DNA of 64,000 bases from Chryseosolibacter indicum. GTDB taxonomy: Bacteria > Bacteroidota > Bacteroidia > Cytophagales > Cyclobacteriaceae. Where the stretch lies: the NCBI RefSeq assembly GCF_018598585.1, contig NZ_JAHESD010000020.1:1-64000 (forward strand). The letters are read 5' to 3'. Position numbers and translations under genes: made by a program. The notes below the pieces were generated by a model. The model saw only the letters and a program-made list of their open reading frames with translations. It had not been told where the DNA came from and made no database searches. This document shows, piece after piece, positions 9,589 to 31,036 of this stretch; position 1 is the first letter of the stretch; each line of letters begins with the position of its first letter.

Positions 9589-10815
9589 TCAATAAAAAAC
9601 GCTGTGTGTTATAAAAAGAACCGAATTACTATTTTCTGTTTTCAGTTTGTTAATTACAGGTGTTAGGTCTAAATTTGGATAATGTGGTTCAGCGATAATA
9701 ATCAACGGTAGGAAGCTTTTCCATTGAATAGGCTCGATTTGCTGATAAGTCCATTGCAACTCCTCTTTGACATAAGGTAGCATCCATTCAAAAGCTTTTT
9801 TAATACTCTTATGATCAGATGTTTCATAATTCCATAGGTCAATTTCTAAATGCTCTGAAAGGCGGGCAAGTCCAAAAAAACCTTTAAGATTCATCGACGC
9901 ATACCCCCAGGATTTTGTTCTTGCTAACTCGTGCGGTTGGCTTCCATCTTGCTTTATCTGCTCTGCAATTCGCGGTATAGTTTGTTCCATAATTATTTTC
10001 CTTGCAAGTTCCTTTTGATTGGTAAATAGGGCAAAGGAAACCACTTGCAGATCGTAATAAGTACCGTGGTTATTGTGTTCATCTAGTTCGTCTTTACCCA
10101 ATGTACTTGTCATCATCCAAGTCATAAACTCTTTAAACCACTTTAATAATTCTTTATGATCTGAACTTGTCCAGGCTTTTGAATTTTTAATAAGCTGGAC
10201 ACCGTCTACAACATCAACCAATGGTTTGGTATCGATTAATCCAATTCCTCTTCCCTCAGTTATACCGGGGATGGCCTGGCCAAAATTCAGGTTAGGATTC
10301 ATCTTTGTTTCTTTATTTAAAAACCATGTCTTCAAAAGAGATGCAGCGTGCTGCGCGTACTTTTCATCCTCGGTAAAATAAAACGTCAAACCTAGCAATT
10401 TAACATCATGTGCAAGTGCTTTTAGGTAGTCGGCGTCTTTAATTGTATGTCGCTCTGGATTTTCTTCTCCATCCCTTCGAATATAAGGAAGACCATTCGC
10501 CTTAGTGGTGTCAGGCCACCAATAGGGGCCAACGCTCATATAATCATGCTTGCTACCACTTGGCGGAATTTTACTTTTATAGACTACTGAGTAAGGTCGG
10601 TGAAGCAAACTTTCATCTGCTTCGGCTACCAAATTATCTAGTGCTTCTTTCAGCGCCTCATCTCCGTTTAGAATGTTTTTTTTACTTGCTTGGAGAACAG
10701 CCATATCTACAATAAATGTTTCAGGTTGTTTAAAAAACTGTGCTTGAGCCCAAAAAATACATGTTATACTTAGTATAATAGCAATGGAGCAAACTTTAAT
10801 GATGAATATTCTCAT
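9589..10815 (-). CDS. Alginate_lyase-domain (PF05426-type) secreted protein, copy 1
   Basis: A 408-residue protein with a signal peptide (residues 1-26, IAIILSITCIFWAQAQ). The rest is an alpha/alpha-toroid of the alginate lyase superfamily: HDYMSVGPYWWPD (about 90-102), GRGIGLIDT, the Asn-His pair in NNHGTYYD (N249-H250), and an RTKSWGYASMNL element near 299-310 that carries the likely catalytic Tyr. These are the features I associate with PL38-like and other Bacteroidota alginate-lyase-family proteins, several of which act on glucuronan or alginate. It is the last gene of the minus-strand PUL, 12 bp after the BNR_4 gene. It is about 30-40% similar by eye to the second copy at 27459-28628. 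Substrate not assignable. Confidence 0.82.
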   Translation of the reverse strand: MRIFIIKVCSIAIILSITCIFWAQAQFFKQPETFIVDMAVLQASKKNILNGDEALKEALDNLVAEADESLLHRPYSVVYKSKIPPSGSKHDYMSVGPYWWPDTTKANGLPYIRRDGEENPERHTIKDADYLKALAHDVKLLGLTFYFTEDEKYAQHAASLLKTWFLNKETKMNPNLNFGQAIPGITEGRGIGLIDTKPLVDVVDGVQLIKNSKAWTSSDHKELLKWFKEFMTWMMTSTLGKDELDEHNNHGTYYDLQVVSFALFTNQKELARKIIMEQTIPRIAEQIKQDGSQPHELARTKSWGYASMNLKGFFGLARLSEHLEIDLWNYETSDHKSIKKAFEWMLPYVKEELQWTYQQIEPIQWKSFLPLIIIAEPHYPNLDLTPVINKLKTENSNSVLFITHSVFY

Positions 10816-10827
10816 ATATGGGTATCT

Positions 10828-12243
10828 TTAACGTATTTGATGTGGCAACTCTTCCTGTTGTTGCATAGTATAGGGTAGCTGCCAGACATGTCCTTCATAA
10901 TCTCCGAAATACAGGTAGGAAATACTTTGCTTACCCGGATCACCGTCCGACCAGAAGTAAATAAAAGGTGGCACTCCGTTTACAACCCGTCTTACATAGT
11001 TGTGGTTTCTATCACTTTGCTGTGTTACCCTTTTTATTTCCCTCCACGAATGTCCCTTATTCTTGCTTTGCCACATTGATATTTCTCCTCCGGACCCATG
11101 TACCTGTGGGCTATTTTCGGTTGGTGCTATTAATGTCCAAGTTTGACCGTTAACTATCAGGCTACCCATATCGTAATTATGATCTGAAGTGCAAATTAAA
11201 TTATCTTCCCACTTTTTTCCGGTCCAGTACAAACACCGCCACTCACGGGGTCCATTTTGAGGACCAGGCTCATGTCCTTTACTTGTAAGGTAAATACAAA
11301 TGGGATTGCCATGCTTGTCGAAAGTTACATCACAGAGATAAACGTTCTTTTGCTGACTGATGTAATCAGATACAAGTGCCATAGAGTTGACATCTTGCAG
11401 TGGTATATTGATGCTAATTCCGGTGATTGTTTGCCAATGTTTACCAAAATCAGAAGTTTCGAGATAATATATGTTTGTTCGTTTATCTACATTACCGTTG
11501 GGATGCCAATTGAAAAATGTTATTATTTTATTCCCATAATGGTTGCTTACCTGATAGTGTCCGCTCTTTATGTCTGAAGATGCCTTTATTCCTGCAAGCT
11601 TAATGTCATCACTCCATGTTTTACCATTAGTACTTGTTTCAAAATACAACTCGCGAACGCCAGTATATTTTGTAAAGAAATGAAAAAATCCTTGTCCCTT
11701 CACATGCCAAGGCTGTGGATATGTAAATACTTCTTCAGTTATCTGTTCAAATGCATCTATTGAATATGGTTGTTTGCTTCTGTATTTATAACCCTTCCTG
11801 GTCGTATTTCTTCCGCTTACAAATACCCAAACATAACCTTCACCATCAAGCATAATACTTGGATTGTCATGCGGGTCATCAACTCCCCCTTTGTCGTGAA
11901 CAATAGTAGGCTTGCTAACCATCTTTGTTTTATGATCGAAACTACCGATCATACACAGTAAGTGCCGGGCCTGTTTATCAGTCGTTCCTCCGTAGACAAA
12001 AAAAGTTTTGTTTACTTCAGGTGCGTATATAGCCATAGGAATATGGTGTGCTGTATATGTGCCGAGTCCTCCAGAATATTTATCTCCGTAAGTAGAAAAC
12101 TGGTTCAGCGTAAACCAGATACCTCTGTAACCATTTACAGTAGTATTACTCGAACCTTCCTTTTCTGATTGTGAAAATGTATTGAGAAAAGCTATCAGAA
12201 ACAGGAATGTAAGGTTTAAAAATATCAACTGCATATTTTTCAC
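10828..12243 (-). CDS. BNR_4 beta-propeller protein, putative polysaccharide lyase or binding protein
   Basis: A 471-residue secreted protein with a signal peptide (FLFLIAFLNTFSQS, end near residue 25). The body carries BNR_4-type repeats: NGYRGIWF, HHIPMAIYAPEVNKTFFVYGG, DDPHDNPSIMLDGEGYVWVF, then Asp-box-like SFDHKT, TSNGKTWSD and TSDFGKHWQTI elements. BNR_4 propellers include ulvan lyases and other lyases of the seven-bladed fold, and also non-catalytic members. His/Tyr candidates exist (HHIP, PHDN) but cannot be assigned as catalytic from sequence. Its start codon overlaps the stop of the upstream heparinase-family gene by 4 bp, so the two are translationally coupled. Confidence 0.78.
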   Translation of the reverse strand: MKNMQLIFLNLTFLFLIAFLNTFSQSEKEGSSNTTVNGYRGIWFTLNQFSTYGDKYSGGLGTYTAHHIPMAIYAPEVNKTFFVYGGTTDKQARHLLCMIGSFDHKTKMVSKPTIVHDKGGVDDPHDNPSIMLDGEGYVWVFVSGRNTTRKGYKYRSKQPYSIDAFEQITEEVFTYPQPWHVKGQGFFHFFTKYTGVRELYFETSTNGKTWSDDIKLAGIKASSDIKSGHYQVSNHYGNKIITFFNWHPNGNVDKRTNIYYLETSDFGKHWQTITGISINIPLQDVNSMALVSDYISQQKNVYLCDVTFDKHGNPICIYLTSKGHEPGPQNGPREWRCLYWTGKKWEDNLICTSDHNYDMGSLIVNGQTWTLIAPTENSPQVHGSGGEISMWQSKNKGHSWREIKRVTQQSDRNHNYVRRVVNGVPPFIYFWSDGDPGKQSISYLYFGDYEGHVWQLPYTMQQQEELPHQIR

Positions 12244-14186
12244 TTTGCAGCTATTTCAAAACTTATCTTATCGGTTGTCTTCGGTACTTTTGATCTAAAA
12301 TTGATTCTATAAATAGTATCACCCCACTTCGCAAGGATGCCCTTATCTTCAGGAGCAGTTAGAGGAACCTTTTCTATTGAAGCTTCAAGTTGATCGTTAT
12401 TAAATCGCACTTTAAAATCTTTGTTACTTCCGTCAGCTGTTTTATAATGTATAATTACTTCACCCGCCTTTGTTACTTCTGAGGGATAGGAAGTCATCAA
12501 GTGTTCTGTTAATTCATTTGCAGCACTTAAATTAATAACATCTTCTACTGTTACGCTTTTTGATCGATTCAAACGAATAGTTCGCTTAAAATTCGTTACA
12601 TGTGCTTCTTGAGGATAAGATTTAGAAATATCCAAAGAGAAAGATGCAAATGATTTTCCTTGTTTATACTCGACGTTTGTAGCTTTAAACTCTCCGCCTG
12701 GTGGCTGCGTCTTTCCATTAATGGTTGGCACATTATGATAATCAGAACAGTTATACCAGATTTCATAACGTCTTGCGCTAAATGTTTTACGTGTATAAGT
12801 TCCGCGGCCTACGTCAATAAGCAAAGGTTGTCCGTCGTAGTAAACAACAAAATTACCAATATCATTATGATTATGGCTTTCATCATTATTGCCTCCTTTA
12901 GCTGCCATAAAGAAACCTTTTGTTGAACCCTGATAGTCCCTCGCTGCCATAACCTGCAGATCAGGTAACCATACATCTTTAGGAAGAGGCAAACCCTGAG
13001 CTGCCTTATCATATTCCTGCTGAATGAACAACGAGAAGAAATTTCTGAAGTAATGAAACCGAGGAAGTAAACCGTCATTTGGCTTTCTGTAGTATGCTCC
13101 AAACTTCATCATGTCTTCATCCCGGATATCTTTGCCGTAACGATATATCATTGTTGCTGATAACCCTGGTTGAGGATCTGCATCGGCGAAGTTCAGGAAA
13201 TACTTTTCACTGATCTGTGCGCGATATATAAACTTCCCCATATTTCTGAATTTTTCATCCCGGAATACATAACTATAAGCATCCTTAGTGGTAAGGTTTA
13301 ACAATGCAATATTATCGTATAAAGAGGCAGCTGCGGCTCCCCAATAACTTGGCCCTTCGTCACATCCGCCATCAAGTGGATGCGGATTAAGATATTCATC
13401 TAGAACCATTAACGCTTTATGTACTCCTTCGGCGCGTTTATCCTCATTCTTTTCCAAAAGCAAAACAGAATTAAGCCAGTTAGAGCAAATCCATGGATTC
13501 CAGTTATTGGGTCTTCTACCATTGTCGTTGGTTTTCATCCAACCATGAGGCTTCGTCAGTAGTGGCTGAAAAACTCTATTGTTCGTCTCAAAGTAAATTC
13601 TCTTTCGTATTTGAGGAGAGACTGCATCCAGTTTATCTCCTAAATAATAGTCTACCCACGCCAGATATGTAGCAGTTTCCGCGGCAAAAAGATCAACAAA
13701 GGGAACAGAGACATCCATTAATCCTGCATATTCTTTGGATTGAGGTAAATGCGCGGGAACACCCCAAAACGACTCCTCACAAATCGACCAAACACCATCG
13801 ATGATTGGATCTATAAAACGTCCTTTATTCTCTGCGATCTCTGCAAATAGAAGCAAACCCAAAACTTCCCGTTTTTTAAAACTTATGGTTTGGTATTCAT
13901 CCCTGTCACCTGTGCGTGCAATCAGCAAAGATTTGGTAGCAGGAATATAGGGCCATTCGTAATTAATATAATTCTCCGCTTGTCTCAAGTATGCCTGAAG
14001 TGTTTGCTGGTCAGCTTTTGACCATCCTTCGCGATCATCCAACTTGGGAAAGGGATGCCATTCGGCCAGAGGAATCAATACTTTTTTTAACTCTTCGGGT
14101 TTATATTTTCCACTCAACAGATTTTGTTGTGCCATTAATGAAGGCACAACAAACAACATTAAAAATACGCACGGCAAATTTCTCAT
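12240..14186 (-). CDS. Heparinase II/III-family lyase (heparin lyase II/PL21-like), secreted
   Basis: A 648-residue protein. I place the start at 14186 because an AAAGGAGA ribosome site lies 7 bases upstream and a signal peptide (CVFLMLFVVPSLMAQQ) follows directly. The in-frame ATG at 14228 would add 14 polar residues. The N-terminal two-thirds form an alpha/alpha toroid (CEESFWGVPAHL, NNWNPWICSNW, CDEGPSYWGAAA). The C-terminal part is the heparinase II/III beta-sandwich with SHNHNDIGNFVVYYDG. CEESFWG, NNW and CDEGPSYW recall heparin lyase II (PL21) and related families. His and Tyr residues suited to beta-elimination are present. The enzyme should cleave a uronate-containing polysaccharide in the periplasm or at the surface. 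It overlaps the BNR_4 gene start. Confidence 0.85.
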   Translation of the reverse strand: MRNLPCVFLMLFVVPSLMAQQNLLSGKYKPEELKKVLIPLAEWHPFPKLDDREGWSKADQQTLQAYLRQAENYINYEWPYIPATKSLLIARTGDRDEYQTISFKKREVLGLLLFAEIAENKGRFIDPIIDGVWSICEESFWGVPAHLPQSKEYAGLMDVSVPFVDLFAAETATYLAWVDYYLGDKLDAVSPQIRKRIYFETNNRVFQPLLTKPHGWMKTNDNGRRPNNWNPWICSNWLNSVLLLEKNEDKRAEGVHKALMVLDEYLNPHPLDGGCDEGPSYWGAAAASLYDNIALLNLTTKDAYSYVFRDEKFRNMGKFIYRAQISEKYFLNFADADPQPGLSATMIYRYGKDIRDEDMMKFGAYYRKPNDGLLPRFHYFRNFFSLFIQQEYDKAAQGLPLPKDVWLPDLQVMAARDYQGSTKGFFMAAKGGNNDESHNHNDIGNFVVYYDGQPLLIDVGRGTYTRKTFSARRYEIWYNCSDYHNVPTINGKTQPPGGEFKATNVEYKQGKSFASFSLDISKSYPQEAHVTNFKRTIRLNRSKSVTVEDVINLSAANELTEHLMTSYPSEVTKAGEVIIHYKTADGSNKDFKVRFNNDQLEASIEKVPLTAPEDKGILAKWGDTIYRINFRSKVPKTTDKISFEIAAK

Positions 14187-14201
14187 AAGTGATCTCCTTT
14201 G
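14187..14201 (-). promoter_or_regulatory. Shine-Dalgarno-like site deciding the heparinase-family start
   Basis: Read on the minus strand, AAAGGAGATCACTT immediately precedes the ATG at 14186. This spacing is optimal and strong purine-rich sites are rare in this window, so it selects the shorter of the two possible starts. Confidence 0.6.
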
Positions 14202-14234
14202 TTCTTTGACTATACTTACTGCAACCAATAATTG

Positions 14235-16109
14235 CTACCAGTTCTTTAGCGGCTTTATTTTCGCTTTTGCTTTCTTAGCTGCTTTTTCAGGAATTAATAG
14301 CACTGTAAATTGATTCTCTTCACTGCCCTTCAGGTTTACTTCAAAACCCACCAGTATGGTTCCAGGATTAGGAGCATCATAGTTCGTAGTAGGTTGTGTG
14401 CTCCATGTGCTTATGGTTGTGTTTGCAGGAGAATCAACCCTAAGAAAAAGTTTTTTTCCCTCTTTCGTAAGTGTTGCTGTATTCTTTCCCGTGATCTCAA
14501 CATTAGCCGAAGTCATCATAACCCACTTTATAGTTGCAGGTTTATCAGTTGCCTTCAATTCATCATGTATGACAACATATTCTCCCTTTACAATTCCCAC
14601 ACCTCTTTTCACTGAAGCTAGCTGATTCTCATAAACAGTTGACAGGTCAGATACCGCATAAGAAAAGTCATGAGCATCAGAATGCTTATCAATCTTGGCA
14701 TAGCCTTTCACGAGCTGCAATTGCCCATCTACTGTAAGAGTATTGTGAACATAATTATTCATTCGCAGGATTGTCCACCGTTGCGCATCCTGAGTGCGTC
14801 CGAAAATGTGCATACCTTTTGACTCCAACGATTCATACTCCTGCATTCCAAAATCAGAAGCCCAACGAACGCCATCAGATTCCATAACAAATGAGCCGAC
14901 GTCCATATGACCATGGTTGACAGAAGGAGATCCCGCCTTAAAGCCGAGATAAATAGCGTTTGGATCACTCCATGAGGTACGCATTATGCTAACAGGATTG
15001 GCCCCCTGGCCCGTCCAAACGTTTTGGGACGGCGCTTCAATTTTATCAAATGAAATACCCTTTCCCCAGATCATGATTGCAGGTAAAAGTCTATCATTAG
15101 TAAAACCGGAAAAATCGCTTGTTTTTAAGTAATCCTTTTCCACCCACAGCAGTGAAGGATCGTTTGACTTTTGAGCGAACCAGAACATAGCAGGACTCAG
15201 ATGACCTCGCATACCAGAATCGCCCCAGTTAAAACAAAGTCCTGTTGGGCCAGTCATGCTACGAAGAAATTTTGCAGTACTAAGAAACCCTGGTACTTGT
15301 GTTAACCCAAAATCAGAAGATAAAGCTTTCTCTACGGCACTCAAAAACATCACATTAAAAGAGGTCCCATAACCCCAGTATCCATATCCTTCCGGATATG
15401 CGCCATCGGGCTTGTATTCATCCATAGGAAGGTGAATAGTATTTATAGCGGTTGACAGAATTTTTTCAGAAAGCTCTGGATAATCTTCAGCTACAGCCAA
15501 GGCGCCGTAAGTCATACCTGCATTACAAACCTGGTTCCAGTTATGAGTTGCTTTGAGGTAGTGATTATAACGATTATCAAAGGAAAGTTCCAATCCTTTT
15601 TTTACGATAGCTTCCTGTATAATTTTTTTTGATTCAAGAGAAAGTTTATCAAAAAGCCAATCGTAACCAATGGCAACTGCCATTGTCATCTCTGCTACAT
15701 CAAGGAAATGGCTTGGATTCCAGTCGCTGAATTTTGAGACCGCCAACAACTCTTTTTCCGCACGTACAAAATATTTGTCGTCGCCTGTCATTCTTGATGC
15801 ATACGAAAGATAGAAAACCCTACGAAGGCATTCTCTCGATTTATCAAGAAGACGTCGCCCTATCTGAATTCGTTCTACAGGAGGTAGCGCAATTATCTTG
15901 TCACATTCTTTAAAAATAGCTTGATCCATCGCGGCCCAAATTTGATTTTGCGAAATTGCTGTTCTTATTATCTTCTCCTCATCCTTGAGCAATAGTATTC
16001 TAGGATGTCCAGGAAGTTTTGAAAAATCAGGAGCTTTATGCTGCTGTCCTGTTACAACAGACAGTAAGCCCATACTAACAATAAGAAGAAGTAAACATTT
16101 CTTTTGCAT
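14235..16109 (-). CDS. Heparinase II/III-family protein, second type (PL15/PL17-like architecture), secreted
   Basis: A 624-residue protein with a signal peptide (LLLLIVSMGLLSVVTGQQ). The alpha/alpha toroid spans about 30-380 with HNWNQVCNAGMTYGA, PDGAYPEGYGYWGYG and FNWGDSGMRGH. A heparinase II/III beta-sandwich follows with SVNHGHMDVGSFVMESDG, where H-G-H and a neighbouring Tyr are the usual catalytic set. The tail is Lys-rich (KAAKKAKAKIKPLK). The N-terminal PGHPRILL box is typical of Bacteroidota heparinase-like lyases. It is distinct from the downstream heparinase-family neighbour, so they are not recent duplicates and probably cut different linkages of one polymer. It is 34 bp downstream of the fusion lyase gene and 48 bp upstream of the next. 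Confidence 0.84.
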   Translation of the reverse strand: MQKKCLLLLIVSMGLLSVVTGQQHKAPDFSKLPGHPRILLLKDEEKIIRTAISQNQIWAAMDQAIFKECDKIIALPPVERIQIGRRLLDKSRECLRRVFYLSYASRMTGDDKYFVRAEKELLAVSKFSDWNPSHFLDVAEMTMAVAIGYDWLFDKLSLESKKIIQEAIVKKGLELSFDNRYNHYLKATHNWNQVCNAGMTYGALAVAEDYPELSEKILSTAINTIHLPMDEYKPDGAYPEGYGYWGYGTSFNVMFLSAVEKALSSDFGLTQVPGFLSTAKFLRSMTGPTGLCFNWGDSGMRGHLSPAMFWFAQKSNDPSLLWVEKDYLKTSDFSGFTNDRLLPAIMIWGKGISFDKIEAPSQNVWTGQGANPVSIMRTSWSDPNAIYLGFKAGSPSVNHGHMDVGSFVMESDGVRWASDFGMQEYESLESKGMHIFGRTQDAQRWTILRMNNYVHNTLTVDGQLQLVKGYAKIDKHSDAHDFSYAVSDLSTVYENQLASVKRGVGIVKGEYVVIHDELKATDKPATIKWVMMTSANVEITGKNTATLTKEGKKLFLRVDSPANTTISTWSTQPTTNYDAPNPGTILVGFEVNLKGSEENQFTVLLIPEKAAKKAKAKIKPLKNW

Positions 16110-16143: not shown

Positions 16144-18198
16144 TTACTCCATTATAATGTACTTTTCAGTACTAAGCTTTTGCTGATCTTTATGTTTGCC
16201 ATTACCAGCGTAAGTGTTACTTTCTGCTTTTATATCTTTTACACCATACGATTCAACGCCATACCCGTTATTATAATGAATTATGTTTTTTTTAACGGAG
16301 ATGTTATCTGAACCATGGTAAAGGAACTCAGTCATAACACCACTGCGATCATTTGCTTCTATGAGGTTGCCTGTTATAGAAATGTCACGGCTCTCTGAAA
16401 TCAGAACGCCATAATAACCGTTTCGTGCAATTTCGCAATTGGTTATCATTCCCTCTTTACTCTGACTTATCGAAACTCCACAGCCAAATGGTGAAGTATC
16501 GAGCCTACTATCTTTTACAGTAATGTTTGAGCAGTGGGTAAGTAAAAGGTTATGCTGCAATTTTGGTCCTGGAACAACACTTGAACCGTTCTCGTTGAGG
16601 TCGCAATTGATGACATTAACATTAGTAGCACCGCTAACAAGTACACCATTATAAGTACAATTTTGGACTGTTACGTTGATGAAGCTAATGTTTTTCATGC
16701 CGCCTTCTTTCGATGCGAGGAAAATTATTCCTCCTCTGTTAGCTCCATTCCGATAAGAACGCGACGAGTTTGGATCACTCGGAATCTCTGTTTTTAAGGC
16801 TCCCTCAACAACAAGATCACGAATTGTTACGTCATGCATATTGTCATCAGTGTTCGCGATTGCATCTCTTATCCCAGAGGAAGGATCTAAGAACAATACT
16901 GTCCGAAGTCCTTCTCCAGCTAACGTTACGCCTGAAGGTACCTTAAGAGTTGTTGAGAGTGTATGAATACCTGCACCTGCAATTACCCATTTTCCAGTAC
17001 CCGAGGCTTCGTTCAATGCGTTTTGTAAAGACTCTCCTGGTGCCACCTTTATGGACTCTGGCGGGTGTGCAGCGCTGATTTCCATTGCTCCCGCCGGATA
17101 AGCTATTCTACCAGGTTTAGGAGTACCGGACTTCCTTTTCCTATACGAAGATGGTGCACGTTGCGCTGTAAGGATACTTCGTGACGCTTTAGGACGAATT
17201 AAATCAGCTGCAGCTTTAGTGTAAGGCACCTCCAACCCTTCCGCCGAATAGTGACGGTAAACATACTCATAATTATCCCTAACATCCTTTACTCTTTCTG
17301 AGATTGGACCGTAGCCATGGTTTTTTTTGCCAAGAACAAAACTAGCAGTGTATTCGAAGCCTAGCGCAATTCTGTTGTCTGCTATAGTAAAAAGATCAAC
17401 ACCTTGCGTATATGCTATACGTGCTGCGCCTGCAAATTCACCTAGCCCAAGCTGAACATGCCCCTGATCTCTTGTACTCTCCTGGCACTGTCCGCTGGGA
17501 TATATATATTTAAATACACTGCCATTAAAAGGCGCATGCAGGAAATGATCTATCGCATTATCGAACATTTGCCGGTTATCCGTGAATACACCAATCGCCA
17601 TGATGGAGTGAATGATAGCACCATCCCAATTGCCGTTTGCTTGTGTATAGTAAAAACGCAGTAAAGGATAGTAAACACCTAAAAGCAAATTAACAAACTC
17701 ATCCGTATTCTCTTTTTGCCATCCGGATTCTGTATACCGAAGAATCTCCGCGGCGTTACAGAGCAAGTGTCCTGTCCATCCGGCAAGAAGTTTTGCATCA
17801 TTATAGTCGAAATCCCATAGCATCGTAGACCACTTGTGGATTACTTCAATTGCCTTTTTCGCGTATCGTTTATCCTCAGTGATATACCACAGCAAAGCAC
17901 AATTATAAGCCATATTTGCTCCCTTCGAAAGGTCATCACCCCCGAAGTTAGGTTTACCGTAGGGCCCCCGTAGCACGTGTGTAAAGGGTGTTACAATAAA
18001 ATTCAGATCAGTTTCATCTTTTAGCTTGTCAAAAGCATTCTTCCATGGTTGCTCGCCCTTGAGTACCTGGTTCTTCATGTATTCCAGGTCTTCCTTTGTT
18101 TGGTCAAGCCCTGGATGAATAATTTTTTGTGCACATATCCTGTTCGTAGTAAATAGAACAACTAAACAAATAATGAATAGCGGCATGGATATTCGCAT
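16144..18198 (-). CDS. Fusion protein: alginate_lyase toroid domain plus right-handed beta-helix domain
   Basis: A 684-residue secreted protein. The start at 18198 (MRISMPLFIICLVVLF) gives a clean signal peptide; the reading frame is open up to an ATG at 18276, but that region contains the upstream terminator and is unlikely to be coding. Residues about 25-320 are an alginate-lyase-family alpha/alpha toroid (FTHVLRGPYG, GWTGHLLCNAAEI, NGNWDGAIIHSI, STRDQGHVQLGLGEF). A basic linker (SSYRKRKSGTPKPGR) leads to about 400-680, a right-handed parallel beta-helix (SGVTLAGEG, then repeated SNITVKDSRL and SRDISITGNLI rungs) typical of pectate-lyase, PL6 or NosD-type folds. Two different lyase-type folds in one chain suggest a two-step or bifunctional depolymerase, or a lyase with a carbohydrate-binding helix. 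Confidence 0.82.
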   Translation of the reverse strand: MRISMPLFIICLVVLFTTNRICAQKIIHPGLDQTKEDLEYMKNQVLKGEQPWKNAFDKLKDETDLNFIVTPFTHVLRGPYGKPNFGGDDLSKGANMAYNCALLWYITEDKRYAKKAIEVIHKWSTMLWDFDYNDAKLLAGWTGHLLCNAAEILRYTESGWQKENTDEFVNLLLGVYYPLLRFYYTQANGNWDGAIIHSIMAIGVFTDNRQMFDNAIDHFLHAPFNGSVFKYIYPSGQCQESTRDQGHVQLGLGEFAGAARIAYTQGVDLFTIADNRIALGFEYTASFVLGKKNHGYGPISERVKDVRDNYEYVYRHYSAEGLEVPYTKAAADLIRPKASRSILTAQRAPSSYRKRKSGTPKPGRIAYPAGAMEISAAHPPESIKVAPGESLQNALNEASGTGKWVIAGAGIHTLSTTLKVPSGVTLAGEGLRTVLFLDPSSGIRDAIANTDDNMHDVTIRDLVVEGALKTEIPSDPNSSRSYRNGANRGGIIFLASKEGGMKNISFINVTVQNCTYNGVLVSGATNVNVINCDLNENGSSVVPGPKLQHNLLLTHCSNITVKDSRLDTSPFGCGVSISQSKEGMITNCEIARNGYYGVLISESRDISITGNLIEANDRSGVMTEFLYHGSDNISVKKNIIHYNNGYGVESYGVKDIKAESNTYAGNGKHKDQQKLSTEKYIIME

Positions 18199-18240: not shown

Positions 18241-18275
18241 AAAAATAATGGCCATTGGAGAACATCCAATGGCCA
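18241..18275 (-). terminator. Strong intrinsic terminator inside the PUL
   Basis: An 11-bp perfect stem: plus-strand TGGCCATTGGA (18249-18259) and TCCAATGGCCA (18265-18275), with a 5-nt loop. On the minus strand it is followed by TTATTTTTA. It lies 20 bp after the stop codon of the DUF4466-like gene and about 50 bp before the start of the fusion lyase. Confidence 0.85.
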
Positions 18276-18295
18276 CTCATGTAAAGTATCAAAAA

Positions 18296-19282
18296 TTAAA
18301 ACATCGTTAATCTCTTCATGCTAATTACAGCAGAACCATTTGCATTTACTGAGTTCACATAAATATATGCACGATATTTACCGTCTTCAGTTTCTACCCA
18401 TGCGCCGCTTTCAGCTTTAAGGTTAATTGCAAAATTAGATGCAGTAGATAAATTAAGATTTCTAAAATCTACCTCATCAACATACACCCCGTATTGAAGA
18501 CGAGCGAGGTGCTGGTCACGAAGGTTCAGCGTTTCAATAATCTTTGTATTGTTATCTACACCTGCAGGTAACGTTACTCCAGGAAGATAAACAGGATCTG
18601 CTGCAGGAGCAACTAATGCGTGATTGAAGTTTTTGCCACCGATACTTCTATATAAGTATACAACATCAATTTTATCAGGCATGGTTGCTGCCTGTGCTGC
18701 ATCATATACTGCCATATCCGCTACAGAAATGTACATAGCTGTTCCATTTACTGCTCTATCCAATGCCATGTCCATATTTGAAATCTCGTATGGCCCCATG
18801 TCATATTTCACAGTTTTTCCGTTAGAATCCTTCGCAGAAAACGTGAAGCTTACCGACTGGCCACGAGCTTCCTCCGGAATAACATAATAGTAACGCAATG
18901 TTGTAGCAAATGTATCTCTGGTGAACGTAACGTTTGTAAAGTTACCTTCTGTGCTGGAAGGAGAAGCAACCTCAATGCCTACATCAGCACCATTGCCTGC
19001 TGTATAATAAGCGAGGTTATCAAACCTTGTATTCGCAGCACCAGGAATAGAAGCTTCAACCTGTGCAGAGGCCAGAGCTCCCAGATCAGGAGGTAGTGCC
19101 ATTGCATAAGCAAACTCGATTCTGTTACCAACGAGGTTTGGACCAATTGTTCTCTTTATACAATCATTCTGAAATTCATTTTTTGGTTGGGGTAGTGAAT
19201 ATTCATCATCCTCACAACCTGTGAGAACAACGAATAACATACCTACAATCGTTACTAGAAAACCTATATTTTTTAATGTCAT
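18296..19282 (-). CDS. DUF4466-like surface lipoprotein of the Sus operon
   Basis: A 328-residue lipoprotein (lipobox LTGCEDDE, Cys near residue 23, acidic +2/+3 residues typical of surface export in Bacteroidota). The body has IEFAYAMALPP near 57, ASAQVEASIPGA, a YYVIPEEARGQSVSFTFSA strand and MGPYEISNMDM. I recognise these as a DUF4466-type domain, seen next to SusD in other PULs. By position, the last gene before the terminator in a SusC-SusD operon, it is probably a surface glycan-binding protein. No catalytic motif seen. Confidence 0.72.
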   Translation of the reverse strand: MTLKNIGFLVTIVGMLFVVLTGCEDDEYSLPQPKNEFQNDCIKRTIGPNLVGNRIEFAYAMALPPDLGALASAQVEASIPGAANTRFDNLAYYTAGNGADVGIEVASPSSTEGNFTNVTFTRDTFATTLRYYYVIPEEARGQSVSFTFSAKDSNGKTVKYDMGPYEISNMDMALDRAVNGTAMYISVADMAVYDAAQAATMPDKIDVVYLYRSIGGKNFNHALVAPAADPVYLPGVTLPAGVDNNTKIIETLNLRDQHLARLQYGVYVDEVDFRNLNLSTASNFAINLKAESGAWVETEDGKYRAYIYVNSVNANGSAVISMKRLTMF

Positions 19283-19293
19283 AACTTTAAAGT

Positions 19294-19698
19294 TTAAGGT
19301 TGTACCGTGATATAGACAGTATAAGTCTTTCTCACTTTACGGTTTCCTGATATAACTGTGTATTGTTTAGGATTTGCAAGGTCTGAGAAATCAACCTTTC
19401 CTGTGATCTTAGGATCCAGTTTTGCATCCGTTACCAACGTAAACTGAGGGTAGAGGTTCTTTAGATCCGTACCAAAAGCAACTTCTACATTAATTGTTTG
19501 AGCCGTTGTGTCTATAGCCGCAGCTTTTGTTCTTACGGTTTGAAAATCTGTACCTAGTAATTCGAAACTACTTACATAACATTCTGACCTCCTGGTTATC
19601 AATAGGCCATCTTCATCAATAGGAAGATCATCAGAGCATCTTGTTGATAAAACCAGAACAAGTGCTACTATTAACGATATCTTAAAATACTTTTTCAT
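19294..19698 (-). CDS. Small DUF5018-like lipoprotein
   Basis: A 134-residue exported protein. The N-terminal hydrophobic segment ends in STRCSDD, a weak lipobox with Arg before Cys, followed by acidic residues. The single domain (SSFELLGTD, INVEVAFGTDLKNLYPQFTLV, GKVDFSDLANPKQYTV, YTVYITV) is the beta-sandwich repeat I associate with DUF5018 and related PUL proteins. It lies between SusD and the DUF4466-like protein with 11-22 bp spacings, so it is co-transcribed. Likely a surface sugar-binding accessory protein. Confidence 0.68.
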   Translation of the reverse strand: MKKYFKISLIVALVLVLSTRCSDDLPIDEDGLLITRRSECYVSSFELLGTDFQTVRTKAAAIDTTAQTINVEVAFGTDLKNLYPQFTLVTDAKLDPKITGKVDFSDLANPKQYTVISGNRKVRKTYTVYITVQP

Positions 19699-19720: not shown

Positions 19721-21568
19721 TTACAACCAAGGCTTATTCTGCGTTAAATTGCTATTGCGATCACGTTCGCCTGGCGGAATACGGAATATATAATTCTGCT
19801 GATATGTAAGCTCAACTGTATTGCGATAGTACACATCGCGGTTTGCACCATGGGTATCTCTTGTTTGAATACCATTTCCGTTTGGTGGTCCCCAAACTCT
19901 TTCCAACGCTCTCCATCTTCGCAAATCAAAACCACGATGTCCTTCAGCAACAAGCTCTATGATGCGTTCCTGTTCTATCGCAGAAAAGAGTGCTTCAGGG
20001 CTTGCAGTCATTGCAGCAGTAAGCGGAGGAAGATTACCACGATGGCGGATTTTATTAACCAGGTCAATTGCATCAGCCTGGGGACCAAGAACAGCATTTG
20101 TTGCTTCAGCATACATCAGGTAAACGTCTGCCAGTCTCATAACAGGCCATGCAAAATCACCATCGCTACGTCCTTGCCCTGCATAGTTCCGTACGAATTT
20201 TCTAAATACATAACCAGAGTTAGACCCGTCTGTATTATAAGTTGTATAAGTTACTCCATTAATGGCCACCTTCTGATTCCATGTATTATAAATAAATGGT
20301 ACAAAACCTGTTGATTGAAGTGAGGCCATACCTATACTCATTTCGTAATCCCATTGAATGGAGGATTTCATTCTGTAGTCTCTATTTGCATAGGACAGAG
20401 GATTTACAGCCGAATTAATAGTTGTTCTTGCAGCCGCATTTGTTGTAGGGTTCATTGGAACCAATTTAGGTGCAAACTCACCTGTAGTAGTTAATTGATA
20501 ACGGTCTGCTATTTCGTAGCGGGGAGAAACCCAACACTGGGAGCTTTCATGAGAACGTCCTGAAAAATCCCGCATTAACTCCTCTCCCTGACTTGTACCT
20601 GTTCCTCCATGTGCAAAATTCATAATAAATTCAGCATCGCCATTTGCAGCAGGGAGAAACAAATGATAGTAGTTTGGTAAAGTATCTGGTTCACCCGACC
20701 TGTCCATGTCACCAGGAGTGCCGCCTCTAAACAATATTAAACCATAGTTATCAATTACAGCTTTAAAATCAGCTGCCGCATTTGTATACGCAGTAACTGC
20801 TGCAGCATCATCTTGCGTAAATCCCTCCAACTCGGGCCATCCAAATCTCTTCCATGAAGCCCAATAAAGCTGTAGCTTACCTCTGAACGCCAAGGCTGCA
20901 GGTTTTCCTGCACGACCGATACCAGGTTTTTTTTCCGGAAGCTTGTCAAAAGCATACGTAAAGTCTGCCATGATAGAATCTTTCACTACAGCAATGGGAG
21001 TGCGTTCAATGGATGCCACCTCATCATTATCATTAACTACCTTATTGATATAAGGCACATCACCCCACATGGAGATAAGACGAAAGTACACCATACCCCT
21101 TAGTAGACGAGCCTCTCCAACGATGGTTTCAAGTCTTTTTCTTACCTCTGCATTAGAAGTTGTTGTCAACAACTTCCGTGTGTTTTCAATAACATAATTG
21201 GTTCGGTTTACACCTCCGTAAAGGTATCGGAAATACTTGTCAAATGAAGAACCATAACCTGATGGGTTATAGTTGCCATTATGATAAGCATCTCCTAACC
21301 GGAGATTACCATCTGTTGCGCTTGTACCTCTTACGCGCGTATACTCTCCGTGGCCATCAAAATAATAATCACGGTCAAAAAGAGGCCTTACACTTGAGTA
21401 TGCACCCATTAAGGCAGCCGCAGCATCATTTTCATTTTTCCAGAAAACTTCAACCAAAGGCTCTGTCGTAGGTTTTTGATCGAGAAGGTCTTCTGAACAA
21501 GAAGCAGGAAAGAGCATTAGCGTACTTAATGTAGCAAATACTCCTATATTAAAAATTAATTTTTTCAT
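19721..21568 (-). CDS. SusD/RagB-family glycan-binding lipoprotein (PUL)
   Basis: A 615-residue lipoprotein (LFPASCSEDLL, Cys near 24). It has the SusD TPR-like core: GGVNRTNYVIENTRK, GEARLLRGMVYFRL near 150, WPVMRLADVYLMYAEA and a C-terminal ERIIELVAEGHRGFDLRRW. SusD proteins sit on the outer surface as the lid of the SusC transporter and deliver oligosaccharides to it. At 15 bp downstream of susC-like and 22 bp upstream of the DUF5018-like gene it is clearly in the same operon. Ligand not predictable. Confidence 0.95.
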   Translation of the reverse strand: MKKLIFNIGVFATLSTLMLFPASCSEDLLDQKPTTEPLVEVFWKNENDAAAALMGAYSSVRPLFDRDYYFDGHGEYTRVRGTSATDGNLRLGDAYHNGNYNPSGYGSSFDKYFRYLYGGVNRTNYVIENTRKLLTTTSNAEVRKRLETIVGEARLLRGMVYFRLISMWGDVPYINKVVNDNDEVASIERTPIAVVKDSIMADFTYAFDKLPEKKPGIGRAGKPAALAFRGKLQLYWASWKRFGWPELEGFTQDDAAAVTAYTNAAADFKAVIDNYGLILFRGGTPGDMDRSGEPDTLPNYYHLFLPAANGDAEFIMNFAHGGTGTSQGEELMRDFSGRSHESSQCWVSPRYEIADRYQLTTTGEFAPKLVPMNPTTNAAARTTINSAVNPLSYANRDYRMKSSIQWDYEMSIGMASLQSTGFVPFIYNTWNQKVAINGVTYTTYNTDGSNSGYVFRKFVRNYAGQGRSDGDFAWPVMRLADVYLMYAEATNAVLGPQADAIDLVNKIRHRGNLPPLTAAMTASPEALFSAIEQERIIELVAEGHRGFDLRRWRALERVWGPPNGNGIQTRDTHGANRDVYYRNTVELTYQQNYIFRIPPGERDRNSNLTQNKPWL

Positions 21569-21583
21569 ACTTAAAAGTGATCT

Positions 21584-24500
21584 TTAGATACCAATGTTAA
21601 TTCCAATAGCATAAGATTTGGTCAAAGGATAGGCATCACTTCTATTGCCTATTTTTTCAGGATCAAGACCACGGTATCCTGTAATTGTCGCGATGTTTTC
21701 CGCTGAAGCATAAATCCTCGCATTGGCCACACGAATTCTGCTAAGCACATTTGAAGGAATTCTATATCCAAGTTGAATGTTTTTCACACGCAGGTAACTC
21801 ATGTCATCCAGCCAGAAAGTAGACTCCTCTCTGTTTGCGTTACCACTTAAACGAGGCCACTCACCATTTCTGTTATCCCAGTTCCATGGATTATTCCAAT
21901 GGTCCCATGTTGAAGCATAACGTTGCGTTGGAAAACTTACGTTGTTGTAATTATTCAACCAATGATCTTTTCGTCCTGTAGCGCCTTGAAGTAAGAAGGT
22001 AAGATCAAATCCTCTCCATGCAACGTTACCAGTTAAACCAAAGTTTGTTGTTGGTCTGTCGCGTTGTACATTCTTATACGCCTTTCTGTCATTACCATCA
22101 ATTCTACCATCACCATTTAAATCCTCGCGTAAGATATCGCCAGGAGACGCCCCCTGAGGAGTAGCGTTATAAACGTCTTGCCAGGTTTGCGCTATACCAC
22201 TGGCAACATAGCTGTACACATAGTTATAAGGCATTCCAACAAAAATATTATTACCAGAGTAAGTAGTTCCTCTTCCCACAAACTCACTCCAGTTTTCAAT
22301 GGTGTTTGCATTATACGAAGCATTCAAATTAACAGAATAAGAAATTTCTCCTATTTGATCACGCCACGTAAAATTACCTTCTATACCTCTGTTGCGCATA
22401 TCTCCTATGTTAGCACGAGGTGCATCGTATGCGCCTCCCAGGAAAACAGACATTTGAGAAGGGAGAAGCATTCCCTTTGTCTTTCTATCATAGAAGTCAA
22501 ATTCTGTAGTAAGACGGTTGTTAAGGAAACCGAGCTCAAGTCCGACGTTTAACACTTGTGTCTCTTCCCAAGTAAGATCTTCATTGATCATTTTCCTATA
22601 TACCAAGCCTTTTGTTACATAACTACCATTCATATAATGGCCTCCTGAAAGAACATCTTGTTGCTCATACCGTTGAACACCACTGTTGTTACCTAAGCCA
22701 CCAAAAGAAGCGCGAAGTTTCCCGTTGCTAAGCCATCCTTCACTAGCCATAAAGTTTTCTTCTGAAAAGCGCCAGCCTACAGCAACAGAAGGAAAGAATC
22801 CGTACTGGTGTCCTTTTAAGAATTTAGATGATCCATCGTAACGGAAGCTTGCTTCTAATAGATACTTATCAAAAGCAGAATAATTTATACGACCGATGTA
22901 TGACCGAAGACCTTCTTCATTTGAATTACCTTCTGTAACCTGAACCTGAGGAAGGGCTGCGTCTATTTCATGAAGAGATGGATGAAGTCTGTCATTCCTT
23001 GATGTTAATTGATAACGGTTATACCAATACTCCTCACTGTAAACTACTAAAGCAGATAAATTATGATTCTCAGCCAATTTCGTGTTGTAACTAATTCGGC
23101 CTTGCAATTGCGTCTTATAACCAGTGTTGGTATAGTTTGCAATACCTGCATTGTCTCCTACATAAACCCTTGAACCAAATGCATTCGCCTGAAAATTATA
23201 AGCACGGTTGGGCATTGGAGCTAGGTAGCGAAACTGATTGTAGTAATTTAATGCATAGTCAAGGCGAGCTGTTAGTCCTTTTATAGGTGACCAGTCAATG
23301 AAAATATTAGGATTTATCTCCTGGCGATTTTGCTCATTAATGTTATTCATGTAAACCGAATACGGATTATATGCCTGAACATCTTCACCGTAAGACATTA
23401 CGCCGCCGTAGTAACCAGACACAGGATTGTAGGGAGTAATACCAGGAATAGCGTACTGCATATCAAAACCTGCTGTATTGGTTGGATCATCATCTGTAAA
23501 ACCATCTTCAAGTGAATATGTGAACTTTGACCAGTTACCATTGAACCTGATCCCCACGTTCATGTTCTCGCGAAGCTTATAATCGTAATTAAACCTGGTG
23601 TTGTAGCGAGAGAAGTCGTTGTTGATTTGTATACCGTCCTGATCGAGGTATCCAACTGAAATAAAGAAATTCGATTTATCGTTTCCACCTGATGCTGATA
23701 AGTTATGATTCATGATCTTTCCATCACGCACAATGATATCCCACCAGTCAGTATTAGGAAAACGTAATGGATCAACCATCCCCATGGCCATCCATTGATC
23801 TATGGTACCATTTTTAAAGATAAAGTTCGATGGAAGGGTATTTACGGCTGCAGCACGCTGATGAAGGGTAAGCGTACGCGGGTAGTTGGCTAAGAAATCA
23901 TAAGACTTTACTGGCTCTTCAATAGCATAGGAGCCAGTATAATTAATCTGTGTCTTTTGCATTCCTTTTCCTGATTTTGTAGTAATCAGTACAACACCGT
24001 TAGCACCACGTGAACCATATACGGAAGCTGATGCTGCATCTTTGAGTACCGAAATGCTCTCAATATCATTAAAGTTTAAGCGGTTAATGTCTACATCAGG
24101 CATACCATCTACGACAATAAGTGGCCCGCTATTATTCACGGAACCGAGACCGCGGATGAGTAGTGAGGCATTGTTATTACCTGCCATACCCGAAGACTGA
24201 GTAGCAGTTAAGCCCGGAACAAGACCTGTAAGTCCAGAAGAAACGTTAGTTAAAGCGCGGCCTGTGATCTTCTCATCTATCTTTACAGCAGAAACAGCAC
24301 CCGTAACGTTAACTTTTTCCTGGGTACCGTAACCTACAACAACAACTTCGTTTAATGTTTGAATATCTGGGGTTAGTGAAATATCTACAACAGTTCTGTC
24401 TCCAACAGGGATTTCTTCCGTTACGTGGCCAATGTAACTGAAAACAAGTACACCATCAGCAGGGACAGAAATGGAGAACTTTCCTTCAACATCTGTAATG

Positions 24501-24676
24501 GTACCTATGGTAGAACCTTTTACAACAACGTTTACCCCTGGAATTGGGTCTACTCCATCAGGGGAAGTGACACGCCCTGTTACGGTCGTCTGCGCTCGTG
24601 CGCTATTGGAGATCCCCACCACTATCAGTAGCAGAGCCAATAACTGACAAAGCTTTTTCTTGTACAATTTTTTCAT
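21584..24676 (-). CDS. SusC/RagA-family TonB-dependent outer-membrane transporter (PUL)
   Basis: A 1030-residue protein with a signal peptide (LLALLLIVVGISNSARAQ). Next come a carboxypeptidase-D-like domain (TVTGRVTSPDG to VEGKFSISVP), a TonB-box-like TLNEVVVVGYGTQ near 108-121, and a plug with SLLIRGLGSV, VDGMPDVDINRLN and VLKDAASASVYGSRGANGV. A 22-strand barrel follows, ending in a short aromatic-poor strand KSYAIGINIGI. No STN domain, so it is a plain importer, not a FecR-type signaller. It imports oligosaccharides captured by SusD. A 278-bp leader with several inverted repeats lies upstream. Confidence 0.96.
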   Translation of the reverse strand: MKKLYKKKLCQLLALLLIVVGISNSARAQTTVTGRVTSPDGVDPIPGVNVVVKGSTIGTITDVEGKFSISVPADGVLVFSYIGHVTEEIPVGDRTVVDISLTPDIQTLNEVVVVGYGTQEKVNVTGAVSAVKIDEKITGRALTNVSSGLTGLVPGLTATQSSGMAGNNNASLLIRGLGSVNNSGPLIVVDGMPDVDINRLNFNDIESISVLKDAASASVYGSRGANGVVLITTKSGKGMQKTQINYTGSYAIEEPVKSYDFLANYPRTLTLHQRAAAVNTLPSNFIFKNGTIDQWMAMGMVDPLRFPNTDWWDIIVRDGKIMNHNLSASGGNDKSNFFISVGYLDQDGIQINNDFSRYNTRFNYDYKLRENMNVGIRFNGNWSKFTYSLEDGFTDDDPTNTAGFDMQYAIPGITPYNPVSGYYGGVMSYGEDVQAYNPYSVYMNNINEQNRQEINPNIFIDWSPIKGLTARLDYALNYYNQFRYLAPMPNRAYNFQANAFGSRVYVGDNAGIANYTNTGYKTQLQGRISYNTKLAENHNLSALVVYSEEYWYNRYQLTSRNDRLHPSLHEIDAALPQVQVTEGNSNEEGLRSYIGRINYSAFDKYLLEASFRYDGSSKFLKGHQYGFFPSVAVGWRFSEENFMASEGWLSNGKLRASFGGLGNNSGVQRYEQQDVLSGGHYMNGSYVTKGLVYRKMINEDLTWEETQVLNVGLELGFLNNRLTTEFDFYDRKTKGMLLPSQMSVFLGGAYDAPRANIGDMRNRGIEGNFTWRDQIGEISYSVNLNASYNANTIENWSEFVGRGTTYSGNNIFVGMPYNYVYSYVASGIAQTWQDVYNATPQGASPGDILREDLNGDGRIDGNDRKAYKNVQRDRPTTNFGLTGNVAWRGFDLTFLLQGATGRKDHWLNNYNNVSFPTQRYASTWDHWNNPWNWDNRNGEWPRLSGNANREESTFWLDDMSYLRVKNIQLGYRIPSNVLSRIRVANARIYASAENIATITGYRGLDPEKIGNRSDAYPLTKSYAIGINIGI

Positions 24677-24954: not shown

Positions 24955-27408
24955 TTACAACGTTATAAATGCAGTTAATAAATCTTCACCCCTTACACTT
25001 ATTACACTTTTTCCTTTACTTCTTACTTTTATTATAGCGCGGCCGTTGTAAAGTTGCACATAATTAGAACCTGAAGATGTGCCTTGATTGTCTATTAGTT
25101 CTCCATCACCAGTTATTGAAAATCTCACAAAATTCATAGCATCCAGGCAGAGCACGCCTTTTTTATCGATTACTTTTGCCTGAATTGTAGTGATTCCATT
25201 ATCCTCCCCAACCTTTTCAATTACAAGTTGCGAAGGCCGATCCCATTTCTCAATCTGATAAATAAAAGTTATTTCATCCTCTACCTTAATCTTACCCTTC
25301 CTAGCCACAACATTTATTTTGTTCTCGCCTTCATTAAACCTTAATAACCATCGCAAACCTGCTGCGGGAAAATCCTGGCTGTTTCTCTTTTTAATACCAA
25401 AAGACTTTCCATTCAGAAACAACTCTACTTCATCGCAATTGGAATATACCTTTACCATCTTCTCTTCGTCTTTTTCTCCCCAACGTACCGGCCAACTGTG
25501 CCCATAAATATGGACCATGGGTTTTTCCGTCCACCATGATTGAAAAACATAATACGACTCTTTCTTGGTAAAGTCTCTTTCTACTACTCCTTTCTGATTC
25601 ATGTAAGGAACAGGATTGTCAGGACGAACAGGTGTAGAAAAATCTTTGAAAGGCCAGTAAGCAGTACCTGTTAACCAGGGCATGGTTTCCTGTTCTTTTA
25701 AATGCCAGTCAATAAGATTGCAGATGTAAGATTCACTCCAATCGCCATCTTTAGATACACGGGCAGAGCCACCAAACAACGAAGCATCACCCGCACGTTC
25801 GTCTGCACCTTTACCTGTCAACACTTTACTTAGTATCTGATCTGGATTTTCTGAGTGTCGCCTGGCGTGGCTATCACCTCCCCATTCTACATGGATAAAG
25901 TGTTTTACCTTGTCTTTTTCGGCTTCTGAAACTGATTTGTATTCCGTGTAAATTCCGCGATACCAACCAGCCCAGATGGAAGGTGAATACACATCAACAA
26001 TGTCTTTACAAAAATCGCATCGGCGTATGGCTGTTTTTCTTGAGGGATCAAGCTGATGAGAAAGATCATTAAGCTCCTTCATAAACGTCCTGATCTTCTC
26101 TTTATCAAATTCCGGAAAATCTCCCGGCCAGTCGTTTTCATTTCCAAGTCCCCATATAATAATGGAAGGATGGTTGTAGTGTTGCTCGATCATGTTTGCG
26201 AGCATGGTACGTGCCTGAGCTTTATATACATCACCACCAAGTCCTCCCCTGCACCATGGAATTTCTTCCCACACAAGAATACCGAGGCTATCACAAAGGT
26301 TTAACACAATCCGCGATTGCTGATAATGGCCAAGCCTGATAAAGTTTACACCCATCTCTTTCATCATCACCATCTCTTTACTGATCATCTCCTCCGTCAT
26401 TGCGGCACCTACGCCTGCATGATCTTCATGACGGTGCGTGCCCCTCAGCAAAAGTCTTTTGCCATTGAGCATGAAGGGGCCCTTTTCTACGAATACAAAA
26501 TTTCGAAAACCAACCTTTTCGGTATACGTACTTTCTGTTTCTCCTACCTTAAAAGATATCTGTACGGTATATAACTTTGGAAGTGTAGTAGACCACAACA
26601 CTGGCTTCTTAAGATCAAAGGATACCAGCTCTTGTGTACCTGATATCGAACTCAAGGCAACGTTCTGTTGTTTCACTACTTTTCCTGACGGATCTATTAA
26701 TGTAACAGAAACATCGGCTTTTGAAACATTAGCCGGATTAGCGAAGCGCGCCTTCACGTTAATGCTACCCGTCTTTCCATCCTTGTCCGTTTGTGCAAAT
26801 GCAAAGATCTTATCAGGATAAACGGAAGGTGTGTATACCAGATTAAGGTAGCGATAGATACCACCATACAAATTGAAGTCAGACAAATCAGATGGGATCA
26901 TTTCCAAATCACGAGAGTTGTCTGTACGTATGGACAAAGGAATTTTTCCCTTAAACTGCTTTTGATAAGCCTCAGTTTTCTGGAATGCAGCAACAGCATC
27001 GGTGATGTCTACTGTCCATTCATCATAGCCACCTACGTGCTCTCCTACTTTTGTTGTATAAATATATACCTGTGTTTTTTGTCCGGCTCCTTCAAAGTGA
27101 AGCAGGGTGCGGCCATTAACGTAAGGATTGTTAACCGATAACGATGTTCTGTACCAGGCAGGTCCCTGATAATAATTAATATCAGGATCAACGGCATCAA
27201 TAGCGTTAACACAATGAGGCAAGGAAACAGAATCCCAGAGAGGCACACTTTCGGGTGCTCCCTTTCCTACGGGGCGAACCGCCTCCCAGATACCGCCCAG
27301 GTCTTGCTTCAAAAATTGCCAATGGTCATTAAGGCGAATATTTTGCTGGCCAAACGCCACCGAGCACAACGCAGTAATAACAATTATAAAAGAAAGGGTT
27401 CGCTTCAT
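24955..27408 (-). CDS. Glycoside hydrolase family 2 enzyme, secreted
   Basis: An 817-residue protein. The start at 27408 (MKRTLSFIIVITALCSVAFGQ) gives a good signal peptide; an upstream in-frame ATG at 27444 is unlikely. Domain order is GH2 jelly-roll (about 25-190, HFEGAGQKTQVYI), Ig-like domain, TIM barrel (about 290-590), then C-terminal Ig-like domains. The acid/base Glu is in GLGNENDWPGDF and the nucleophile Glu in HVEWGGDSHARR. GH2 covers beta-galactosidases, beta-glucuronidases, beta-mannosidases and others. Motifs here do not decide between them, though the uronate theme of the locus makes a glucuronidase or galactosidase plausible. It is the last gene of the GH88-DUF4861-lyase-GH2 run. 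Confidence 0.9.
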   Translation of the reverse strand: MKRTLSFIIVITALCSVAFGQQNIRLNDHWQFLKQDLGGIWEAVRPVGKGAPESVPLWDSVSLPHCVNAIDAVDPDINYYQGPAWYRTSLSVNNPYVNGRTLLHFEGAGQKTQVYIYTTKVGEHVGGYDEWTVDITDAVAAFQKTEAYQKQFKGKIPLSIRTDNSRDLEMIPSDLSDFNLYGGIYRYLNLVYTPSVYPDKIFAFAQTDKDGKTGSINVKARFANPANVSKADVSVTLIDPSGKVVKQQNVALSSISGTQELVSFDLKKPVLWSTTLPKLYTVQISFKVGETESTYTEKVGFRNFVFVEKGPFMLNGKRLLLRGTHRHEDHAGVGAAMTEEMISKEMVMMKEMGVNFIRLGHYQQSRIVLNLCDSLGILVWEEIPWCRGGLGGDVYKAQARTMLANMIEQHYNHPSIIIWGLGNENDWPGDFPEFDKEKIRTFMKELNDLSHQLDPSRKTAIRRCDFCKDIVDVYSPSIWAGWYRGIYTEYKSVSEAEKDKVKHFIHVEWGGDSHARRHSENPDQILSKVLTGKGADERAGDASLFGGSARVSKDGDWSESYICNLIDWHLKEQETMPWLTGTAYWPFKDFSTPVRPDNPVPYMNQKGVVERDFTKKESYYVFQSWWTEKPMVHIYGHSWPVRWGEKDEEKMVKVYSNCDEVELFLNGKSFGIKKRNSQDFPAAGLRWLLRFNEGENKINVVARKGKIKVEDEITFIYQIEKWDRPSQLVIEKVGEDNGITTIQAKVIDKKGVLCLDAMNFVRFSITGDGELIDNQGTSSGSNYVQLYNGRAIIKVRSKGKSVISVRGEDLLTAFITL

Positions 27409-27458
27409 TATTATGTTCAACTTTATAATTGTGTTGTTATCCATTTAGCTAAAACAAA

Positions 27459-30960: not shown

Positions 30961-31036
30961 CGTATTCATTTTTCACGGTGATCCTATGTGCTACAGTATT
31001 TAATGTAATCTTCTTTATGCCTAAGTTAAAAAGTAA

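Follow-up and report, generated by a model that had tools for sequence, protein, structure and literature searches.

An open reading frame in the genome of Chryseosolibacter indicum raises the question of how an alginate-lyase toroid and a right-handed beta-helix, two superfolds of the lyase type, function within one protein chain: as two activities on one polymer, as an enzyme with a helix used for binding, or as the parts of a common site. The gene is contained in a 64,000-nucleotide stretch of contig NZ_JAHESD010000020.1 (the window), where it occupies the minus strand; the preliminary description gave no strand for positions 16144-18198, and the plus strand there is full of stop codons. 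In the encoded protein, the Pfam domains Alginate_lyase (PF05426; residues 90-292, E 2e-15) and Beta_helix (PF13229; residues 551-668, E 9e-16) are both detected above the curated cut-offs, and the two toroid motifs quoted previously are present, with NGNWDGAIIHSI starting at residue 188 and STRDQGHVQLG at residue 241. AlphaFold modeling of the full chain yielded two folds rather than a contiguous one, with a mean pLDDT of 93.8 and a pTM of 0.91 in a second model built from 75 sequences, up from pLDDT 84.9 and pTM 0.72 in a first one built from 42. Thus, the original proposal that a single chain joins two lyase-type superfolds is borne out by domain search and structure prediction alike.

The accompanying view, in which a basic linker joins two halves, is not supported, although the connector of the window protein itself is basic (net charge +5). 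The charge ranges from +2 to -5 in the relatives, and this lack of conservation rules out a basic linker as a family feature. Moreover, the connector is ordered in the second, better model and the domains look rigidly docked; according to this model, therefore, the chain of two folds is a single rigid unit rather than two parts joined by a flexible basic tether. The hydrophobic N-terminal segment MRISMPLFIICLVVLFTTNRICAQ looks, by eye, like a Sec signal peptide, and Pfam detected no T9SS tail; from these two features we infer that the protein is exported. Many of the related proteins in which the toroid is joined to carbohydrate-binding modules (CBMs) differ in having such a tail.

Table 1. 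Features of the window around the toroid-helix gene, in descending order of coordinates
Feature	Coordinates	Strand	Basis or remark
LacI-type regulator	31205..32236	-	
GH88-family protein, probably unsaturated glucuronyl hydrolase	29788..30969	-	
DUF4861 protein	28625..29791	-	
PL38-like protein	27459..28628	-	3nfv, E 1e-61; BoPL38, E 4e-41
GH2-family protein	24955..27444	-	
SusC-type TonB-dependent transporter	21584..24676	-	plug and CarbopepD_reg domains
SusD-family protein	19721..21568	-	
DUF5018-like small protein	19294..19698	-	below curated cut-off
DUF4466 protein	18296..19282	-	near neighbor in 49/80 related loci, usually directly upstream
Terminator-like hairpin in the gap between the DUF4466 and toroid-helix genes	18247..18277	-	13 pairs, T-rich tail
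Toroid-helix gene	16144..18198	-	684 aa, stop codon included in coordinates; ORF list, Pfam
(alpha/alpha) toroid, residues 27-349	17152..18120	-	Pfam, conservation, AlphaFold model
Connector, residues 350-380	17059..17151	-	ordered in model; charge not conserved
Right-handed beta-helix, residues 381-680, mannuronan C5-epimerase type	16159..17058	-	Pfam, profile match, AlphaFold model
Helix loop, residues 472-483 (D475-P476-N477 and R480, 98-100% conserved)	16750..16785	-	family alignment
Helix loop, residues 537-550 (P543-G544 and H549-N550, 98-100% conserved)	16549..16590	-	family alignment
PL35-type glycosaminoglycan lyase	14235..16109	-	8khv, E 6e-233
PL33-type lyase	12240..14228	-	8r73, E 4e-116
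BNR_4 beta-propeller protein	10828..12243	-	Pfam; PDB search without match
PL38-like alginate-lyase-family protein	9589..10815	-	Pfam, profile alignment

The genes between about 32 kb and 9.6 kb are all on the minus strand and include a SusC/SusD pair beside carbohydrate-active enzymes and a regulator, which identifies the region as a polysaccharide utilization locus (PUL; Table 1). The first lyase-like gene to follow the hairpin, read from 18277 to 18247, is the toroid-helix gene. Of the 23 related loci where this gap spans 40-200 bp (L129-L185), 21 also contain a comparable hairpin there, of different sequence, so that the previous remark on a terminator at this position was right and applies generally. 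The hairpin, conserved in place but not in sequence, lies between the SusCD/DUF4466 block and the enzyme block and may determine how much binding protein is made relative to enzyme. The DUF4466 protein, on which a literature search returned nothing, may be a surface glycan-binding protein of such loci. The BNR_4 propeller recurs in 8 related loci and matches an alpha-L-rhamnosidase model weakly.

Apart from the window protein, a single relative with both domains (46% identity) was present in the sampled whole genomes, along with a group of proteins approximately 1313 residues long. Scanning 84,980 species genomes with a profile identified 143 relatives, of which we kept the 80 that match nearly end to end, with best-segment identities of 43-67%; the existence of these 80 in public genomes rules out a chance or misassembled fusion. 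The architecture is thus not unique, and none of the 84 family members examined has one of the two folds without the other. The carriers, from Bacteroidota and a few other phyla, belong to Prolixibacteraceae, Chitinophaga, Telluribacter, Adhaeribacter, Dyadobacter, Parabacteroides, Bacteroides and Cyclobacterium, with a few records labeled Acidobacteria, Verrucomicrobia, Pontiellaceae or Latescibacterota; some odd labels (Williamsia, Lachnospiraceae) come from metagenome bins that may be misplaced.

A DUF4466 gene lies near the toroid-helix gene, as a rule directly upstream, in at least 49 of the 80 loci, and a PL35, PL33, PL8 or PL38 gene is present in at least 37; these are lower bounds because many contigs are short. 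No sulfatase motif was found in any of the 80 loci, with a pattern that does detect a sulfatase-like ORF elsewhere. Three lineages have fused the toroid-helix pair to a third enzyme: heparinase III (PL12; 4mmi, E 4e-115), a second, PL38-like Alginate_lyase domain, or GH92. The third domain of the Cyclobacterium fusions is not a copy of a window neighbor: it is PL12 and only weakly resembles the PL35 and PL33 proteins of the window. GH92, an alpha-mannosidase family that one would not expect beside a uronan enzyme, is located at the N-terminus of the fusions in L186, L187, L189 and L194 (Pfam was run on L186, L189 and L194). In the tree of the family, built with FastTree only and including several weak forks, there are two clades, and three changes of architecture are required. 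Members of clade II are mostly found outside the DUF4466 cluster, so the substrate may differ there. In 14 of the 80 loci there is a member of an 888-residue family (L088:12557-15220) with similarity to Uly1040 (9vtk, E 6e-60), by its name an ulvan lyase.

The toroid half resembles the PL5/PL38 lyases of alginate, glucuronan and glycosaminoglycans (PF05426; A1-III, BoPL38; Z about 26-27), although a single-sequence search with the window protein matched no PL5 or PL38 structure. All 84 family members share N190, W191, E240, R243, D244, H247 and E282. By two concordant profile alignments, N190, E240 and R243 are the Asn, Glu and Arg of PL38, matching the Asn before His220, E266 and R269 in the PL38-like protein of the window. 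Unlike in PL5/PL38, the place of the catalytic Tyr is taken by His247 and that of the NNH-motif His by Trp191, both without exception in the family, so that canonical beta-elimination is not assured; a further difference is the C-terminal helix domain. In the sampled wider subfamily, where the C-terminal slot holds CBM6, CBM35, CBM3, CBM9, F5/8 type C, laminin G or ricin-type lectin domains, E151, N190, R243, D244, H247 and E282 are invariant, too. Given this conservation within the family and beyond it, the cleft, as judged from the alignments, is altered rather than decayed.

Among solved structures, the helix half comes closest to AlgE4, AlgE6 and an alginate epimerase/lyase (Z 33-34). In particular, the helix matches the A-module 8ja4 with Z 34.4 and rmsd 1.9 over 273 residues, and AlgE4 with Z 32.8 in structure comparison and E 8e-11 in a sequence profile search. 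The similarity to these mannuronan C5-epimerase/lyase A-modules (AlgE4, AlgE6, AlgE7, 8ja4) spans the whole length of the fold at 21-22% identity; the differences are the attached toroid, a distinct set of invariant loops and the absence of the catalytic residues, which in AlgE7 are Tyr149, Asp152, His154 and Asp178 (PMC8824271). By rung register, these positions correspond to N517, L520, S522 and T554, none of which is conserved in the family, and the YG-x-D motif is absent from all 16 helices checked. In a local HMMER alignment, the catalytic rung of AlgE falls two rungs later; the register used here is favored by the structure ranges (381-681 against 1-320), and the motif is missing in either one. 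An AlgE-type epimerase, as defined by its catalytic residues, is accordingly ruled out, and the suggested chemistry, with a Ca-binding Asp and an Arg or Lys base, is not established for this helix. What the family conserves instead are N477, R480, H549 and N550 (100% of the 84 members), D475 and R565 (98-99%), and E589, R592 and E614, also fixed. A divergent helix of the same type in L116 (7035-9104, minus strand) follows an N-terminal domain that has no Pfam match and, to the eye, looks galactose-mutarotase-like.

The reading we favor, at somewhat less than even confidence, is that the protein is a Sec-exported PUL enzyme acting on an unsulfated glucuronate polymer through a cleft formed by toroid and helix, most likely as a lyase by beta-elimination. 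The toroid would provide a uronate-binding cleft in which N190, E240 and R243 are retained from PL38, D244 is added, and H247 stands at the place of the catalytic Tyr. The helix would sit where PL17, PL33, PL35 and other toroid lyases carry an antiparallel beta-sheet domain; in lyases of this layout, the cleft is closed by the C-terminal domain, which also contributes a His or Tyr to catalysis (PMC11848413, PMC12088678). The lyases with a toroid and an antiparallel beta-sheet (PL12, PL15, PL17, PL21, PL33, PL35) share with the window protein the toroid (PL17, Z 28) and the two-domain layout and differ in that a right-handed beta-helix replaces the beta-sheet domain here. When PL17 and PL35 were aligned on the toroid in the two models, the aligned range in most comparisons extended as far as residues 473-476 or 535-543, which lie within or beside the two conserved helix loops. 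These end points, from which alone the facing of the loops is read, suggest that the helix replaces the beta-sheet wall, and they lead us to favor a composite cleft with beta-elimination, in which the loops with D475-P476-N477 and R480, and with H549-N550, would point towards the toroid cleft and the pair would cut chains or oligosaccharides. More tentatively, and with considerable doubt, the protein could represent a new PL family, with an epimerase-type helix in the place of the beta-sheet domain, one site across two superfolds and His for Tyr.

The invariant polar residues in both halves oppose an inert helix, which may be either catalytic or binding; binding alone is less likely than a role in an active site. 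A second, separate site in the helix groove, belonging to a uronate C5-epimerase or another lyase that prepares or trims the substrate of the toroid, would fit the AlgE-like structure and profile matches, the capacity of the AlgE7 fold for both epimerization and lysis (PMC8824271) and the retention of the H549-N550 pair even in the divergent L116 helix on its unrelated N-terminal domain; with the AlgE residues replaced and YG-x-D missing from 16 of 16 helices, we consider it rather improbable. Somewhat less credible still is a helix that only binds or positions carbohydrate next to a toroid that alone is catalytic: binding modules such as CBM6 and CBM35 do occupy the same slot in related proteins, but the helix invariants include charged loop residues rather than an aromatic platform, and the ordered connector and rigid model are unlike a tethered CBM.

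Least probable, and in our view very unlikely, is a catalytically dead, structural toroid, with the chemistry left to the helix or a partner enzyme. The replacement of the catalytic Tyr and His points this way, as does RiPL8 of Roseihalotalea indica, which resembles the window protein in the linkage of an N-terminal Alginate_lyase domain to another lyase and in its PL35/PL38 glycosaminoglycan locus; that domain neither cleaved nor bound hyaluronan (PMC13027841). RiPL8 counts against a toroid lyase, but the likeness is at the level of the Alginate_lyase domain only: its C-terminal partner is PL8, and a beta-helix is not reported (PMC13027841). Against a dead toroid stand the invariant cleft residues and the fact that the toroid is the better conserved half, with 49-54% identity versus 36-41% for the helix.

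The enzymes of the same loci point to the substrate of the favored composite-cleft lyase. Hyaluronan, chondroitin or heparan sulfate serve as substrates of PL35, PL33, PL8 and one PL38, with gellan as an additional substrate of PL33 (PMC12088678, PMC11848413, PMC13027841). Together with GH88, the PL12 fusion and the lack of sulfatase motifs, these specificities point to an unsulfated glucuronate polymer, from which we infer either a glycosaminoglycan-like chain (hyaluronan, chondroitin, heparosan) or a bacterial exopolysaccharide. A rhamnose-containing polymer is possible in view of the BNR_4 and Uly1040-related neighbors.

The homologs are many, and a search that covered part of the open-access literature found no characterized protein with the toroid-helix architecture. 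The gene is apparently a recurrent, uncharacterized member of a widespread cluster for acidic glucuronate polysaccharides, carried by cultured soil and gut bacteria and by many metagenome bins. Solving the protein would assign a function to a family of two-fold enzymes, complete the enzyme set of such loci and reveal how one substrate can be handled jointly by a beta-helix and a toroid. If the composite site is real, it would mean that another fold can stand in for the second wall of a toroid lyase.
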